NCBI GenBank assembly: GCA_902578505.1
Contig: CACHDD010000008.1
Coordinates: 1-28,689, forward strand
Direction: 5' to 3'
DNA length: 28,689 bases
Source: an uncultured Bacteroidota bacterium
GTDB taxonomy: Bacteria; Bacteroidota; Bacteroidia; Flavobacteriales; UA16
Shown: piece after piece, positions 17,910 through 26,005 of the stretch
Position numbering within the stretch: position 1 is the first letter of the stretch
Layout: each line of letters begins with the position of its first letter
The notes under the pieces: model-generated
What the model saw: the letters and a program-made list of their open reading frames with translations, nothing else
The model's database searches: none
Told to the model about the DNA's origin: nothing
Position numbers and translations under genes: made by a program

Positions 17910-19031
17910 TTACTTGCTAAGAGGAGAATGGCTTATAATTTCTAAGCCGTAACCAATATTTCCTGACTTTCTAGGAGTGTCAGTAAGGATGTTGATTTTT
18001 CTAATTCCTAAATCTCGTACAATTTGCGCTCCTATTCCATAATCCTTAGAATCAAAAGGATGGAATACTCCAGTGTCCTTTTTCTTCTTATGGTAATCAT
18101 CATAAGCTTTTAGCTCTTCTGCAATTCCGCTACTCTGATGAAGCTTATTGATAAATATTATCGCACCCTTTCCTTCAGCTTCAATTTTTGCCATTGCTGC
18201 TTGAAGCTGAGGGCCCTTACCTAAATCGCTAACTTGAAAAACATCACCAATCATACTTGATGCATGTACCCTAACTGGAACTGCTTCTTCAATATTCCAA
18301 TTGCCTTTTACTAAGGCCAAATGCTCTGTGTCATCTGTCAACTGCTTGTATGATATTGCATTAAATGGACCAAACTCAGTATTCAACTTTACTTCATAAG
18401 TGCGATCAATCAGTGTCTCATTTTCTAGTCTGTATGCAATAAGATCCGCGATTGAAACTAGCTTCATGTTGTGCTTATCTGCAATCTTCTTAAGCTCAGG
18501 CAGCCTAGCCATTGTTCCGTCTTCATTGAGAATCTCAACAATGACTCCAGCAGGCTCAAATCCTGCAAGTCTAGCAAAATCAATAGCAGCTTCAGTGTGT
18601 CCGTTCCTTCTAAGTACACCTCCAGCCTTTGCTCTAAGTGGAAAAATATGCCCTGGCCTACCTAATTCTTCAGGTTTAGTGTTTGGGTCAATTAAAGCTT
18701 GAACTGTTTTAGATCTATCGCTGGTTGAAATACCAGTAGTACATCCATATCCAAGTAGGTCTACTGAAACTGTAAATGGTGTTTCGTAGGCTGCATTGTT
18801 TGTTTGTACCATCAATTCGAGGTCTAAAGCATCGCACCTGCTTTCTACAAGTGGAGCGCAAACTAGTCCTCTTCCATGAGTTGCCATGAAGTTTATGACA
18901 TCGGGAGTTACATTTCTTGCAGCAGTTAGGAAATCACCTTCGTTCTCTCTATCCTCATCGTCTACTACAATAATCACACCTCCATTGCGTATTTCTTCTA
19001 TCGCTTCTGGAATAGAATCTAAAATTGACAT
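17910..19031 (-). CDS. ribBA: 3,4-dihydroxy-2-butanone 4-phosphate synthase fused to a degenerate GTP cyclohydrolase II domain
   Basis: Riboflavin synthesis. The N-terminal half (about residues 1-200) is an intact RibB domain, with DDEDRENEGD, ATHGRGLVCAPL, CTTGISTSDRSKT and GRPGHIFPLRAK, converting ribulose 5-phosphate to the four-carbon precursor. The C-terminal half has the fold and length of GTP cyclohydrolase II but lacks the active site. Where the zinc cysteines belong (HSEC..DCG) it reads VHASSMIGDVFQVSDLGKG, and the RQEGRGIG loop is replaced by NKLHQSSGI. This resembles the RibBX-type hybrids described in other bacteria. A separate complete ribA lies at 26086. I start at ATG 19031 (373 residues) because the -7 box lies at 19043-19036; the longer in-frame start at 19046 would include that promoter. 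It is divergent from def. Confidence 0.93.
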   Translation of the reverse strand: MSILDSIPEAIEEIRNGGVIIVVDDEDRENEGDFLTAARNVTPDVINFMATHGRGLVCAPLVESRCDALDLELMVQTNNAAYETPFTVSVDLLGYGCTTGISTSDRSKTVQALIDPNTKPEELGRPGHIFPLRAKAGGVLRRNGHTEAAIDFARLAGFEPAGVIVEILNEDGTMARLPELKKIADKHNMKLVSIADLIAYRLENETLIDRTYEVKLNTEFGPFNAISYKQLTDDTEHLALVKGNWNIEEAVPVRVHASSMIGDVFQVSDLGKGPQLQAAMAKIEAEGKGAIIFINKLHQSSGIAEELKAYDDYHKKKKDTGVFHPFDSKDYGIGAQIVRDLGIRKINILTDTPRKSGNIGYGLEIISHSPLSK

Positions 19032-19064
19032 GGTGCAAAAATACATTCATAAATTTGCACCATG
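19029..19064. promoter_or_regulatory. Symmetric divergent promoter of ribBA and def
   Basis: CATGGTGCAAA (19029-19039) and TTTGCACCATG (19054-19064) are perfect inverted repeats across a 14-nt spacer and include both start codons. Each arm ends a perfect -7 box: TATTTTTG for ribBA (minus, 19043-19036) and TAAATTTG for def (plus, 19050-19057). Both are followed by CACC-ATG. A TTG at 19025-19027, 22 nt upstream of the def box, can serve as its -33 element. Both transcripts would be leaderless or nearly so. Confidence 0.65.
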
Positions 19065-19637
19065 ATAAAACCTATAGTTGCTTTTGGAGATCCTGTGTTA
19101 AAAGTAGAGGCAGAAGAGATAGAAAAGGGCTACCCTGAACTTAAAAAGTTGATTTCAGATATGTGGGAAACTATGTATGAAGCTGAAGGAGTTGGTCTAG
19201 CTGCGCCACAAATAGGTGAATCTATTAGAATGTTTGTCGCTGATGGTTCGCCTTTTGGAGAAGGTGAAGATGGAGATCCTGATTGCCTTGATTTCAAAAG
19301 AGTTATGATTAATCCTGTAATTTTTGAATCTTCTAAAGAAACGAGCATTATGGAAGAAGGGTGTTTATCAATTCCAGGTATTAGAGAAGAGGTAGAAAGA
19401 CCTGTAAGTATTAAAATTGAATACTTTGATGAAAAGTGGGAGTTAGTTGAAGAGGAGTTGTCAGGAATTGCAGCTAGAATTGTTCAGCACGAATACGACC
19501 ACTTAGATGGAATTATGATTCCTGACCATATTACTTCTATTAAAAGAAGATTACTTCACGGAAAGTTGAGAGATATAGGATTAGGTAAAGTACCTGTTGC
19601 ATACAGGATGAGATTGCCAAAAGGAAAAGTTAGATGA
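19062..19637 (+). CDS. def: Peptide deformylase
   Basis: Metalloenzyme removing the formyl group from N-terminal methionine of nascent proteins. All three family motifs are present: GVGLAAPQIG, EEGCLSIPG (metal-binding Cys) and QHEYDHLDG (two metal-binding His plus catalytic Glu). The length of 191 residues is within the family range, and a short insertion (PFGEGEDGDPDCLDF) between motifs 1 and 2 is common in Bacteroidota enzymes. The start at 19062 is 4 nt after a perfect -7 box. Its stop overlaps the ATG of the lipoprotein gene (ATGA), so it heads a def-lipoprotein-alkB run. Confidence 0.97.
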   Translation: MIKPIVAFGDPVLKVEAEEIEKGYPELKKLISDMWETMYEAEGVGLAAPQIGESIRMFVADGSPFGEGEDGDPDCLDFKRVMINPVIFESSKETSIMEEGCLSIPGIREEVERPVSIKIEYFDEKWELVEEELSGIAARIVQHEYDHLDGIMIPDHITSIKRRLLHGKLRDIGLGKVPVAYRMRLPKGKVR

Positions 19638-20149
19638 GGTGGTTTGGGCTAATTGCAACAGCGATAATTCTTGTATCATGCTCAACAGAGGTTGAGGTAA
19701 AGAATGTCGATTGCAATCAACACAATGAGATTATTAAGTCAAAGGAGGCGGCGTTTGTTGAATTTGGTTACGATGCACAATTAATACAGGATTTGATAGT
19801 TTTATATGCTACTTATGCAAATTTTTGCAGAGAGGATAGTCTTACTCCAGAGTACTTGATGCGTAGAGCAGACTTACTTAGAGGAAGTGGAAAAATTCGC
19901 CAAGCCATTTCTCAATTTAAAGATGTACACGATAGTTACCCATCTTACCAAAACAAAATCACTTGTGCATTTATCGCAGCCTTTTTATATGAAACAGAGT
20001 TGAATGACAGGGAAATGGCAGAAAAGCTGTACCTTCAGATAATTGAATCTTACCCCGAGTCTCATGAAGCAAGTGTTGCAAGAGTTTCTTTACAACATCT
20101 TCATGAAACTTCAGACGAGTTGATATCTAGATTGAAGCAAAATGAATAA
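19634..20149 (+). CDS. Lipoprotein with TPR-like helices
   Basis: A 171-residue protein with a lipoprotein signal (LIATAIILVSC, lipobox Cys at about residue 16), so it is anchored to the inner or outer membrane. The remainder is helical. The stretch from about residue 73 (PEYLMRRADLLRGSGKIRQ, AISQFKDVHDSYPSY, then EMAEKLYLQIIESYPES) has the A-x-x-LY..I..YP spacing of tetratricopeptide repeats as in YfgM/BamD-like proteins. No specific role is recognised. It overlaps def (ATGA). Its last codons and stop form the first unit of the 14-bp tandem repeat that leads into alkB. Confidence 0.8.
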   Translation: MRWFGLIATAIILVSCSTEVEVKNVDCNQHNEIIKSKEAAFVEFGYDAQLIQDLIVLYATYANFCREDSLTPEYLMRRADLLRGSGKIRQAISQFKDVHDSYPSYQNKITCAFIAAFLYETELNDREMAEKLYLQIIESYPESHEASVARVSLQHLHETSDELISRLKQNE

Positions 20150-20191
20150 AGCAAAATGAATAAAGCAAAATGAATAAAGCAAAATGAATAA
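20136..20191 (+). repeat. Four perfect 14-bp tandem repeats with overlapping start and stop codons
   Basis: AGCAAAATGAATAA is repeated exactly at 20136, 20150, 20164 and 20178, with a diverged fifth unit from 20192. The first unit encodes the end of the lipoprotein (Gln-Asn-Glu-stop). Each unit supplies an ATG, at 20142, 20156, 20170 and 20184. The first three open five-codon frames (MNKAK) whose TGA overlaps the next ATG; the fourth ATG starts AlkB (MNKVK). The array therefore looks like duplication of the original lipoprotein-alkB junction. Confidence 0.95.
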
Positions 20192-21221
20192 AGTAAAATA
20201 CATACTCGTATATACTATTCCACTTGTAACAGTGGTGGCGTTTATGTACGATGGTATTTGGTCTTGGGCGACAGTCTTTTATGCTTTTGTAATTCTTCCA
20301 TTTATCGATCATGTAATGAAAATTGATTCTTTGAATCTAACCAAAGAAGAATCTGAAGAAGCTTTAAATTCAAGGTATTACAACATTGCTCTATATGGTA
20401 CAGTTCCCGTACAGATAGGTTTTGTGGTTTGGTTTATAGTTGGAGTAATGCCCAAAGAGATGTCATCAATTGACATGTTTGCAAAAACATTTTCAATGGG
20501 TGCAATGGGAAGTGTTCTTGCAATAAACAGTGCACATGAAATTGGCCATAGATTAGGGAAGGCAAACAAGCTTTTGTCTAAGCTCCTTTTAACATCAGTT
20601 TTATATGTACACTTTTTTGAAGAGCATAACTATGGTCATCATAAAAATGTAGGCACGTATGATGATCCAGCTACGGCAAGGAGAGGAGAGTGGTTGTACA
20701 CGTTTGTTTTTAGATCAATGGTAATGGGATGGATTGAAGCGTGGAAGATTGAGAGAAATAGATTGAATAGAAAAGGAGGAAGTGCAATTAGTTTTAAAAA
20801 TGAAGTTCTAGTTTGGCAGGTTATACAAATAGGAGTTGTTGCAGCCGTTTATCATTATTACGGATTACTGATTTTAGGATGCTTTGCTCTTGCTTCATTT
20901 TTCAGTGTCTTTATTCTTGAAGCTATAAATTACATAGAGCACTATGGATTGACTAGAGAAAAGGTGAGTGAGTATAGATATGAAAAAGTAAAACCAATCC
21001 ATAGCTGGAATGCTGACAACCAAATCGGTAGAGCTGTTCTTTTTGAATTAACTCGTCACTCAGACCATCACGAGAACCCATCTAAGCCATATCAGGTATT
21101 AGTTTCTCCAGGAAACACTCCTCAATTACCTACTGGATATCCTGGAATGATTTTACTTTCACTTGTTCCTCCATTATTCTTTTTCATAATGCATAAAAGA
21201 ATTGATGCTTTCAATGGTTGA
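20184..21221 (+). CDS. alkB: AlkB-type alkane 1-monooxygenase
   Basis: Membrane di-iron hydroxylase that oxidises the terminal carbon of medium-chain alkanes, normally with rubredoxin and rubredoxin reductase. Hydrophobic segments cover residues 5-22, 28-42, 70-88, 105-115 and several later spans. The histidine boxes are complete and AlkB-like: HEIGHR (from His118), EEHNYGHHKN followed by DDPATARRGE, the AlkB-specific NYIEHYGL, and LTRHSDHH near the C-terminus. At 345 residues it is shorter than the classical 400-residue AlkB. No rubredoxin gene is visible nearby. A related substrate (fatty acid or xylene-type) cannot be excluded. Translation is preceded by the minicistron array at 20136-20191. 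The palindrome ATACAATTGTAT (21221-21232) follows the stop. Confidence 0.88.
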   Translation: MNKVKYILVYTIPLVTVVAFMYDGIWSWATVFYAFVILPFIDHVMKIDSLNLTKEESEEALNSRYYNIALYGTVPVQIGFVVWFIVGVMPKEMSSIDMFAKTFSMGAMGSVLAINSAHEIGHRLGKANKLLSKLLLTSVLYVHFFEEHNYGHHKNVGTYDDPATARRGEWLYTFVFRSMVMGWIEAWKIERNRLNRKGGSAISFKNEVLVWQVIQIGVVAAVYHYYGLLILGCFALASFFSVFILEAINYIEHYGLTREKVSEYRYEKVKPIHSWNADNQIGRAVLFELTRHSDHHENPSKPYQVLVSPGNTPQLPTGYPGMILLSLVPPLFFFIMHKRIDAFNG

Positions 21222-22405: not shown

Positions 22406-22437
22406 GCGCAACCACTTATGTGTTATTGCGTCTTTTA
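22406..22437 (+). terminator. Weak possible terminator after fbaA
   Basis: GCGCAA (22406-22411) and TTGCGT (22426-22431) can pair over 6 bp including one G-U, followed by CTTTTA. The loop is 14 nt, so the structure is marginal and read-through into the next gene is possible. Confidence 0.3.
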
Positions 22438-22465
22438 TAAGAATCGAACTTTAAAAATTATAATC

Positions 22466-25400
22466 ATGAAGCAGTTTTTTCTCTTTTTAATTGCTGCGCT
22501 TACTACAGGAATAGCGTCGGCAAATTTTGTTGGTTTAGAGAGTGAGTTTATCACAGAATCTGAATACGGTACAGTATATCGAGTATACGCCACTTTTGAT
22601 AACCCAACAGATGAGCTAGTTGCGATATACGCATTAGAAACTGCTCCAATTGAGGTTGCTTGTTCAACTTCTTTCTTCCAATCTACAGTTGGTTCGGCTT
22701 TGGGGTCAGAGATTAACCCAATGTTTTTCACTTTCTTTCCAGATCTTGAATTCGACAGCTGGTTTACTATTGGATCTGAAAATTCAAATGGGACTTCAGA
22801 TATTCAGCAAGTTGGAATGGATGATTACTTTTCCTCTTTTGAAGCAGGTGATGGATTTACTATTGACACCTTTGTTGGAGGGTCTTTTTTCCTAATCCCA
22901 AACATTTCAGATGATGCAGAAGCTGGTGATGATTTAAAAGTTCTAATAGGCCAATTCACAACTGACGGTGAAGTGTCTATGTGTTTAAACTTCCAATGGG
23001 ATGATGCAGATGCTAATACCTTTAATGACGAAGGATATTGCATTACTTTCCCAGGTAGTGCATCAGTGCCTGGTTGTACAGACCCTGCAGCGAATAACTA
23101 CGATCCAACCGCTACAGAAGATGATGGTACATGTGAGTACGACGATGAGTGTTCTGGTGCAGATCAGCTAATTCTAGCTACAAATTACAGCTACACACCA
23201 AGTGAGATTTCAGTTGGTGTTGGTGCGACAATAGCATGGTCTAACACGGGTGGTTTTCACGATGTAAATGGTGTCGTTAACTCGATTACTGACGCATCAT
23301 TTAACAACCCAGAATCATTTTCATTAGCTGCTGTTAGTGGTAATGCAAATGGTGTGTGCATTGGTTCTTATACTTTCAATATTCCAGGTGTATACAATTA
23401 CGATTGTTCTATTGGTAACCACGCAGCTAATGGTATGGTAGGAACAATTACTGTTGGAACTGGTGGTTGTACTGACCCAACAGCTTCTAACTATAATTCA
23501 AATGCTGACTATGACGACGGTACTTGTGAATCAATTGGAGGCGGTGGAAATGATTTAGTCCTAGGTCTTACATACGAAACGGTAGCAACAAACCCGCTAG
23601 GAGATGGTCAAAATACATATAGACTTTATGTTGAATTCACAACAAATGATGTTGAACTTGTTGCTGTTTACGGTACAGACACAGCTCCTTGGCAAATGAC
23701 TTCTACGTCAGATAATGGATTCTACAATAATATGTTAGGTGGTGATTTTGGTGGAGCAATAAATCCAGTGTTCTTTCCTATGTTTCCAGAACTTGAATAC
23801 GATAGTTGGTTTACTATTGGTGCAGAACCAGGAGAAGATGATGGTCTAAATAGTGCATTTGATGCTGCTTTGACTTCTTTGGATGACTTTAATATCGGTG
23901 AAGACTTTATTGTAAACACATTTATTGGAGGTTCAATATTTATTGTTCCAGGAGCAAATCTTCAAGGATTGCCAGTAAATAATAAGGTTTTAATAGGTCA
24001 ATTTACTACTTCAGGAATTATTGATGCTCTTGTAAATATTCAATATAGAAATTCTGCGCAAGAGTCAATTCAAGATGAAGGACTTACTCTCACTTTCCCT
24101 CAGGCAACACTTGGTTGTACTGATGATAGTGCCTGTAACTTCGATCCTGCTGCTGAACTTGATGATGGATCTTGTTTAGAAAACGACTTATGTGGAGAGT
24201 GTGGAGGTGATAATTCCACATGTCAGGGATGTACTGATCAGAATGCATGTAATTACGACCCTGATGCTTTAGTAAACGATGGATCTTGTTTAGAAAACGA
24301 CTTATGTGGAGAGTGTGGAGGTGATAATTCTACATGTCAGGGCTGTATGGACGAAGCTGCATGTAATTTCGATCCACAAGCACAGTCTGATGATGGAAGC
24401 TGTGAATATCCTGAAGAATTTTATAATTGTGACGGTTGTATCAATGACGTTGATGAGGATGGAATATGTGATGAGTTAGAAGTGCTAGGTTGTACAAGTC
24501 CTGGTGCGGATAATTACAATTCAGATGCAACTGAAGATGATTTTTCATGTACTTACCTAGATGGTATGGTTCTAGGACTTTCTTATGAAGAAGTTGCAGC
24601 GGACCCTCTTGGTACAGGACAAGCTACATATAGACTCTATGTTAACTTCCCAAATGATGATGTTGAAGTAACAGCTATGTTCGGTACAGATACTGCGCCA
24701 TGGGAGTTACTTTCTACAGCAGAAGGTGGATTTTATAATAACCCTCTGGGAGGAGATTTTGGTGGTTCGATTAATCCAACTTTCTTCCCAATGTTTCCTG
24801 ACCTTGAATACGACAGTTGGTTTACAATTGGCGCAGAACCTGGAGACGACGACGGTCTTAATAGCGCATTTGATGCTGCTTTGACTTCTTTGGATGACTT
24901 TAATGCTGGCAATGACTTTGTTGTAAACACTTTTGTTGGAGGTTCAGTATTTGTTGTTCCCGGTGCAAATTCACAAGGAGTACCGGTAAATGGAAAAGTT
25001 CTTTTAGGTCAATTCACAACATCGGGGGTTGTTACAGCTCTAATCAATGTACAGTTTAGAGATGTTAATCAAATTTCATATCAAGCTGAAGGTATGACAA
25101 TTACATTCCCCGCTCCCGGAGTTGGATGTATAGATGAAGAAGCTTGTAACTATGACCCTGATGCAGTTCTTGATGCTGGCTGTGTATATCCAGAAGAGTT
25201 CTATAATTGTGATGGATGTATAAATGATACTGATGGTGATGGAGTATGTGATGAGTTAGAAGTTGAAGGTTGTACTGATGCTATGGCATGTAACTATAAT
25301 TTAGATGCAACAGATGATGATGGATCTTGTTTACAGAATGACCTATGTGGTGTATGTGGTGGTGATAACAGCAGCTGTTCGGGTTGTACCGATCCATTAG

Positions 25401-26005
25401 CATGTAATTACGACTCTAATGCTACATTAGACGATGGAACATGTGAATTCCCAATCATGTACTACGATTGTAATGGAAACTGTTTAAACGATAGTGATGG
25501 AGATGGAGTTTGTGATGAATTAGAAGTACAAGGTTGTACAGATGCAGAAGCTGATAATTATAACGCAGATGCAACTGACGAAGATGGTTCATGCCAGTAC
25601 TTAGGCTGTACAAACCCAAATGCAGAAAACTATGACGAAGGAGCAAACGTTGATGATGGGTCTTGTATAGTTCTTGGTTGTACTAACTCAAATGCAGAAA
25701 ACTATAATCCAGAGGCAACTGAAGACGACGGATCTTGTACTGCAACAGGATGTACATATTTAGGTGCAGACAACTACGACTCACTCAATACTACCGACGA
25801 CGGTTCTTGTATTTTCAACGGTTGTACAGACTCTGATGCACTAAATTTCATTGCACATGCAAATAATGATGATGGTTCATGTGTTTACGAGGAGTGTACA
25901 GGAGAGAGCGATTGTCCATTTGATGCGAACGGTGATGGAGAAATAGGATCTGCCGACCTTCTTGAATTCCTTGTAGCTTACGGTCAAGCGTGTGAGGATT
26001 TGTAA
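22466..26005 (+). CDS. Giant secreted repeat protein with three sister domains, a blue-copper domain and 14 GCTD..DDGSC repeats
   Basis: A 1179-residue exported protein. The start is ATG 22466, giving the signal peptide [19 protein letters not shown]; an in-frame ATG 48 nt earlier would precede it with polar residues. Three homologous domains of about 180 residues (22520-23050, 23560-24110, 24565-25125) share [14 protein letters not shown] and [12 protein letters not shown] motifs. A cupredoxin-like domain (about residues 232-333) has a complete type 1 copper set: His265, Cys314, His319, Met324. Fourteen cysteine/aspartate repeats of the form GCTDxxAxNYDxxATxDDGSC link them, some with [12 protein letters not shown] or DGVCDELEV inserts. 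The C-terminus carries one EF-hand/dockerin-like loop ([17 protein letters not shown]). No type A or B T9SS tail is obvious. Acidic residues suggest calcium binding. The physiological role is unknown. Confidence 0.88.
23855..24904 (+). repeat. Intragenic direct duplication with a 1011-bp period
   Basis: The second and third sister domains of the giant protein are related at DNA level. A 39-nt stretch at 23855-23893 recurs exactly at 24866-24904, and flanking sequence is highly similar. The period, 1011 bp, is exactly 337 codons, so recombination between copies would keep the frame. Confidence 0.85.
24164..24342 (+). repeat. Tandem 114-bp repeat inside the giant protein gene
   Basis: The 65 nt at 24164-24228 recur at 24278-24342 with a single mismatch, a period of 114 bp (38 codons). 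Each copy encodes the end of one DDGSC-type repeat plus the [18 protein letters not shown] insert. Recent duplication is likely. Confidence 0.85.

Follow-up and report, generated by a model that had tools for sequence, protein, structure and literature searches.

A 14-bp tandem array of overlapping stop and start codons between a lipoprotein gene and alkB in an uncultured Bacteroidota bacterium, probably expanded from a single junction

In a stretch of 28,689 nucleotides from an uncultured Bacteroidota bacterium (Flavobacteriales, lineage UA16; contig CACHDD010000008.1), in the following called the window, a 14-bp tandem array joins a TPR lipoprotein gene to alkB within a tight def-lipoprotein-alkB row (Table 1). 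On balance we favor the reading that the array is young and was expanded by slippage from one tight stop/start junction (ATGAATAA, overlap -8 nt), with the hand-over of ribosomes to alkB by repeated reinitiation still possible.

Table 1. Positions in the window of the def-lipoprotein-alkB row, its promoter-like motif and the parts of the array.
Feature	Position	Strand	Basis
Bacteroidota-type promoter-like motif TTG...TANNTTTG, just 5' of def	19025..19057	+	motif match
def, peptide deformylase; 4-nt overlap of its TGA with the lipoprotein ATG	19062..19637	+	ORF, Pfam
TPR lipoprotein gene, 171 aa, TAA in unit 1	19634..20149	+	ORF; Pfam TPR_6 1.8e-06; relatives
14-bp array, four exact AGCAAAATGAATAA	20136..20191	+	TRF, self-match
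Minicistron 1, MNKAK-TGA, 8-nt overlap with the lipoprotein end	20142..20159	+	sequence
Minicistron 2, MNKAK-TGA, ATGA overlap with minicistron 1	20156..20173	+	sequence
Minicistron 3, MNKAK-TGA, ATGA overlaps with minicistron 2 and alkB	20170..20187	+	sequence
alkB, alkane 1-monooxygenase, 345 aa, start in unit 4	20184..21221	+	ORF; Pfam FA_desaturase 3.8e-28

The array consists of four exact copies of AGCAAAATGAATAA starting at positions 20136, 20150, 20164 and 20178, and on the + strand of the window the exact unit is confined to it. The exact period-14 run extends at most from 20135 to 20193 (59 bp). TRF reports 20135-20199 (period 14, 4.6 copies, 98% matches, score 123), and in the window this is outscored only by 114-bp repeats at 24159-24397. 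The latter are direct repeats of about two copies with 82-90% matches, located within a 1195-aa ORF (22418-26005) that is built of GCTD..ACNYDPDA..DDGSC-like repeats. The longest self-match run in the window at periods of 4-60 comprises 45 bases, as compared to at most 15 bases after shuffling of the window with a third-order Markov model (n = 200). The initial annotation had placed the array at 20136..20199; the four exact units stand, but positions 20194-20199 lie beyond the exact run and are counted by TRF only, which allows a mismatch.

The lipoprotein ends with ...RLKQNE followed by TAA at 20147-20149, inside unit 1. A minicistron MNKAK-TGA begins at each of the positions 20142, 20156 and 20170 with an ATG, and the fourth ATG, at 20184 in unit 4, is the start of AlkB (MNKVKY...). 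The first minicistron overlaps the lipoprotein gene by -8 nt (ATGAATAA), its ATG being located five bases before the TAA, and the three later overlaps (minicistrons 1/2, 2/3 and 3/alkB) are -4 each (ATGA). Self-match and reading of the ORFs thus confirm the four copies, the frames and the MNKAK minicistrons as they had been described from the sequence at first sight. Co-directed ORFs with overlapping stop and start, here one of -8 and then three of -4, belong to the characteristics of translational coupling by termination-reinitiation, and tandem repetition where a gene is controlled belongs to those of phase-variable or contingency repeats (VNTR); the junction has these two features.

The gene order in the window is a ribB-like gene (minus strand), def, the TPR lipoprotein gene, alkB and an aldolase-like gene, where ribB-like and aldolase-like are names that we presume from our own reading of the sequence rather than names assigned by a tool. 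The label lipoprotein stands for an N-terminal signal and a Cys read in the sequence, with no tool behind it. A 108-aa protein (P0145) equals the lipoprotein over its first part and is unrelated afterwards, which suggests an assembly that is chimeric or truncated. AlkB is similar to solved AlkB structures (8sbb_A, 4.2e-64; 8f6t_A, 2.7e-63) and contains what we take to be the His boxes and the HYG motif (HEIGH at 118, EHNYGHH at 147, NYIEHYG at 249 and RHSDHH at 291), the combination by which an AlkB alkane monooxygenase is recognized; a search of AlkB against NCBIfam found no family at 0.001.

A peptide-pattern search of a genome collection yielded one relative, locus L001 in a Crocinitomicaceae MAG (G001), whose AlkB is 78% identical to that of the window. 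In the family of G001 there is an AlkB match at E 1e-60 or better in 71 of 114 genomes. Among the matches listed only G001 (78%) and G105 (63%) have a close AlkB, the other listed full-length matches being less than 50% identical. The AlkB protein P0001 is 93% identical to that of the window and thus closer than that of G001, the closest relative compared at the DNA level. For the lipoprotein of the window, the protein cluster P0122 reaches 91% identity. No AlkB relatives were found in viral contigs or in plasmids, and the repeat dimer gave 0 matches in viral contigs.

Altogether 31 loci were compared, of which L002 duplicates L001; def, lipoprotein and alkB matches occur together in 20 of the remaining 30. 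The overlap between def and the lipoprotein gene is -4 in the window, in G001 and in G105. At the lipoprotein-alkB junction G105 (L003) has CAGAAACATGAGTAA, a single copy of the same -8 junction, and G001 has a TAG immediately followed by ATG (overlap 0), both without the array; loci farther removed often show a larger gap here or an ambiguous start. Five lipoprotein/AlkB protein cluster pairs, matched by equal length of the longest contig, provide weak evidence, NE and MN termini being present in three and absent in two.

Between the window and G001, 794 of 1,035 aligned alkB bases agree and 241 differ. Since the four units are identical while alkB has diverged this far, the array looks young. 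With a single copy the window junction would hold AAGCAAAAT and AAGTAAAAT, a near-repeat 14 nt apart that could plausibly have been the slippage substrate. Most likely, slippage expanded the junction in this lineage specifically; slippage and ancestral state are what we infer from sequence comparison, as we do the direction of change from one array and two array-free relatives. Because the junctions of G105 (-8) and G001 (0) differ, it is less than certain that the ancestor had -8. The proposal of the initial annotation that the array arose from one overlapping stop/start junction gains support from G105, which carries such a single junction.

The mechanism that we propose begins with replication slippage at the AAGCAAAAT/AAGTAAAAT near-repeat, which would duplicate the single -8 junction. 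As the duplicated stretch holds both the stop and the start, added units would become five-codon minicistrons linked by ATGA. Ribosomes leaving the lipoprotein gene could then be handed to alkB via repeated termination-reinitiation along the ladder, each step of which would stay at -8 or -4 although the direct gap widened from -8 to +34 nt. In addition, each of the four equal ATGs may admit new ribosomes.

In the available part of PMC10666635 it is reported that the commonest stop/start overlaps are -4, -1 and -8 and that at +38 nt three E. coli gene pairs had lost 80-90% or all of their reinitiation. From this distance dependence, as far as the excerpt goes, a bare spacer of +34 nt would nearly uncouple alkB. 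Other studies cited in the same excerpt describe coupling that spans 73 nt or 150-850 nt (PMC10666635), from which it follows that +34 nt may not uncouple.

The initial annotation had also claimed that the copy number can change without altering either protein. This held in silico: when the junction was rebuilt with 1-8 units, the lipoprotein end was the same and the chain to AlkB complete every time, the direct gap between the lipoprotein stop and alkB being -8 at one unit, +34 at four and +90 at eight. How readily such chains form was seen in simulated duplications of 9-40 bp covering the junction, a link being counted leniently wherever an ATG lay between -11 and +5 nt relative to a stop. 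The single-copy window junction (ATGAATAA) gave a chain to alkB in 327 of 560 duplications: 190/198 for lengths of 1 mod 3, 119/175 for 2 mod 3 and 18/187 for multiples of 3, where AlkB gained an in-frame extension in 77 of the 187 and a gap remained in 92. With the G105 junction the respective numbers were 191/198, 114/175 and 8/187. The zero-gap junction of G001 chained under the same lenient rule in 576 of 624 (213/220, 158/195 and 205/209), which indicates that bridging is not special to the -8 overlap. Since duplicated tight junctions often bridge themselves in simulation, no design is needed, and copy-number neutrality largely follows from the copying of a tight junction. The array is best read as the product of an ordinary mutational process on a tolerant junction, with the coupling plausibly preserved; we think that it is near neutral or brings about a mild change in AlkB output.

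The motif TTG...TANNTTTG 5' of def, in which we take TANNTTTG to be the Bacteroidota promoter consensus, is the probable promoter of the row. On the + strand no further TANNTTTG, the consensus being the one assumed, was found from the def element (19050) to alkB, and the element is also present in L001; a single transcript of def, lipoprotein gene and alkB from the def promoter is therefore likely, as judged by these motifs. A sigma-70-like site at 20015-20043 (+, 9/12 match) was not counted as a promoter, such sites numbering 2 in the region versus 8.2 expected. No terminator-like site was found between 19000 and 21400. The initial annotation had named an alkB promoter downstream of the array as an observation that would speak against it; since alkB starts inside the array, this does not apply as worded. 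Upstream, the TTG...TAAATTTG motif within 19025-19062 ends four bases before the def ATG, with the same stretch in L001, and def may be read from a leaderless or nearly leaderless transcript.

All four ATGs of the array have an A at -3 and at -6. In Flavobacterium johnsoniae, according to the accessible text of PMC6847099, A at these positions favors initiation without Shine-Dalgarno sequences, so that direct initiation is possible at each of the four. This weakens the claim that a ribosome would have to restart several times, which assumes that AlkB is fed only from the lipoprotein gene. The same context could mean that new ribosomes land at, or are decoyed by, the repeated A-rich ATGs, while those leaving the lipoprotein gene contribute little. 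The mean unpaired probability of the array, 0.73, would suit such a function. The units are 14 nt apart, less than the footprint of a ribosome, so that the sites would exclude each other, and the genes stay tightly linked in relatives, which suggests coupling. We regard this reading as rather unlikely.

Additional ATGs ahead of a gene may have a cost. In Bacteroidetes AUG is depleted near starts, as stated in the available portion of PMC6847099. In G001, by mechanical first-ATG ORF calls and hence approximately, ATG and GAT number 194 and 406 in the 21 nt upstream of starts versus 636 and 644 in mid-gene, and at least three ATGs within 45 nt upstream are found for 22 of 1,488 ORFs. By this depletion the array might do mild harm instead of being neutral.

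Could copy number be under selection as a rheostat, slippage altering the number of rungs, each rung losing a fraction of the ribosomes, and the copy number thereby setting the output of AlkB versus that of the lipoprotein? Both proteins are unchanged at 1-8 copies, as the idea demands, and repeat length controls expression elsewhere, albeit by other means (PMC3894217, PMC12817950, each as far as excerpted). A toy flux model with a restart probability r and a direct start d, in which mutual blocking of ribosomes is ignored, gave a decrease of AlkB from 0.70 to 0.35 between one and four copies at r = 0.6 and d = 0.1, where direct starts are weak. With strong direct starts (r = 0.6, d = 1.0) AlkB increased from 1.60 to 2.31, and with r = 0.9 and d = 0.1 it was constant at 1.0. 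The model thus gives both directions, and the sign of the copy-number effect on AlkB cannot be read from the sequence. G001 and G105, moreover, do without the array. A selected rheostat appears unlikely to us.

Slippage expansion of one junction leads one to ask how common ladders are elsewhere. Among the 25 window ORFs of at least 100 aa, three linked minicistrons precede one (alkB), one precedes three and none precedes 21. In a strict scan (first ATG, ORFs of at least 100 aa, ORFs nested in longer same-strand ORFs dropped), the calls of which are mechanical and the numbers therefore approximate, G001 (1,686,862 bases scanned of about 1.7 Mb; 1,491 ORFs) had no rung before 1,377 ORFs, one before 107, two before 7 and three before none; G105 (351,195 bases, 308 ORFs) had none before 276, one before 29, two before 3 and three before none. 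A loose scan of G001, in which any ATG was allowed as last start and the last ORF had to be at least 60 aa, gave as candidates 1,368 one-rung chains, 38 two-rung chains and one three-rung chain (C20:18811).

Repeats were also searched by a mechanical both-ends test, in which one ORF ends and another starts within an array. Among the TRF rows with a period of 5-60 and at least 2.8 copies, one of 60 in G001 passed (C33:18270), which lies inside an 837-nt ORF, and none of two in G105. A period-14 four-rung ATGA pattern was found in 9 of the 114 family genomes (102 matches, summed), mostly heptamer arrays among those listed, and was rejected as a sign of recurrence: the reversed pattern, used as control, had 105 matches (summed) in 15 of the 114 genomes, and because it matches as often there is no enrichment. 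Thirty of the 102 matches were examined as loci, among which some arrays occur more than once, and the both-ends test was passed by L033 alone, with ORFs of 62 and 64 aa. Heptamer-type arrays (ATGACAA, ATGAATT etc.) are carried by 9 of the 114 genomes and in these loci (L032-L061) are mostly located away from gene starts. A period-17 pattern matched in two of the 114 genomes and a period-11 pattern in one (G065), where an 11-bp tandem array with TGATGA rungs (L175:1492-1545) sits between convergent ORFs and so cannot couple genes. Another repeated sequence, GATATGCCNAGGNTATGAGTAA, occurs four times in G001 (C30; L111, 9860-20230) and three times in G105 (L162) and may encode the shared C-terminus (LEDMPRL) of tandem paralogues.

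The initial annotation knew of no described example of such a ladder. This has to be qualified by the mycobacterial MIRUs, which the passage at hand from PMC12548453 describes as repeats in which a small ORF is coupled at -4 nt to the gene that follows, and of which copies can be added with little harm. Three 77-bp MIRUs are present in the senX3-regX3 intergenic region of strain H37Rv, and two of 77 bp and one of 53 bp in that of CDC1551; the region can by itself drive regX3 (PMC4213456, in the section available). There is thus precedent for repeats that place stacks of coupled ORFs between two genes.

The two are alike in that here too the unit contains a small ORF coupled at -4 nt (MNKAK-TGA, ATGA; compare the PMC12548453 passage), and in that in senX3-regX3 copies likewise stack between two co-directed genes, with a make-up that depends on the strain (PMC4213456, same section). 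MIRUs, however, are 77 or 53 bp long, apparently mobile and interspersed, as far as that section tells, whereas the unit in the window is 14 bp, which is outside the MIRU lengths. It is also built from the junction itself, and its rungs have five codons. It is in this junction-derived 14-bp unit that the array differs, and among the literature matches listed the excerpts contained no tandem stop-start ladder beyond the MIRU passage.

Other systems share single features. Ordinary pairs coupled by termination-reinitiation have overlaps of -4 and -8, which are among the commonest in the excerpt of PMC10666635; they have one junction, whereas here there are four in series with five-codon minicistrons between them. 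In pil1 of Streptococcus gallolyticus, judged from partial text, repeat copy number changes ribosome behavior upstream of the controlled genes, but the repeats alter the length of one leader and act via transcription attenuation, and the window has no terminator-like site between 19000 and 21400. Synthetic bicistronic designs, as outlined in the abridged source, pass ribosomes from a short leader cistron to the gene of interest; they are engineered, with a single leader cistron and no repeat.

It is very unlikely that mis-assembly of short reads over the repeat has given a false copy number in the record, although the window may be a metagenome record and neither nearest relative (G001, G105) has the array: 59 bp is less than the length of an ordinary short read, and assemblers are more prone to collapse repeats than to expand them.

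If ribosomes walk the ladder, the expanded junction would provide a natural reinitiation series with identical rungs, one per 14 bp, and both proteins unchanged. The loss per restart would become measurable in Bacteroidota, a phylum that starts translation without relying on Shine-Dalgarno pairing. Quite improbable but of wider reach would be a purely translational heritable rheostat, in which slippage adds or removes stop-start rungs with the flanking proteins intact and AlkB output changes in steps; as duplicated tight junctions often bridge themselves, such junctions would then be possible general seeds of ladders that tune dosage, especially in Bacteroidota with their starts of this kind. 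If ribosomes do walk the ladder, tight gene junctions would tolerate tandem duplication without breakage of the operon.
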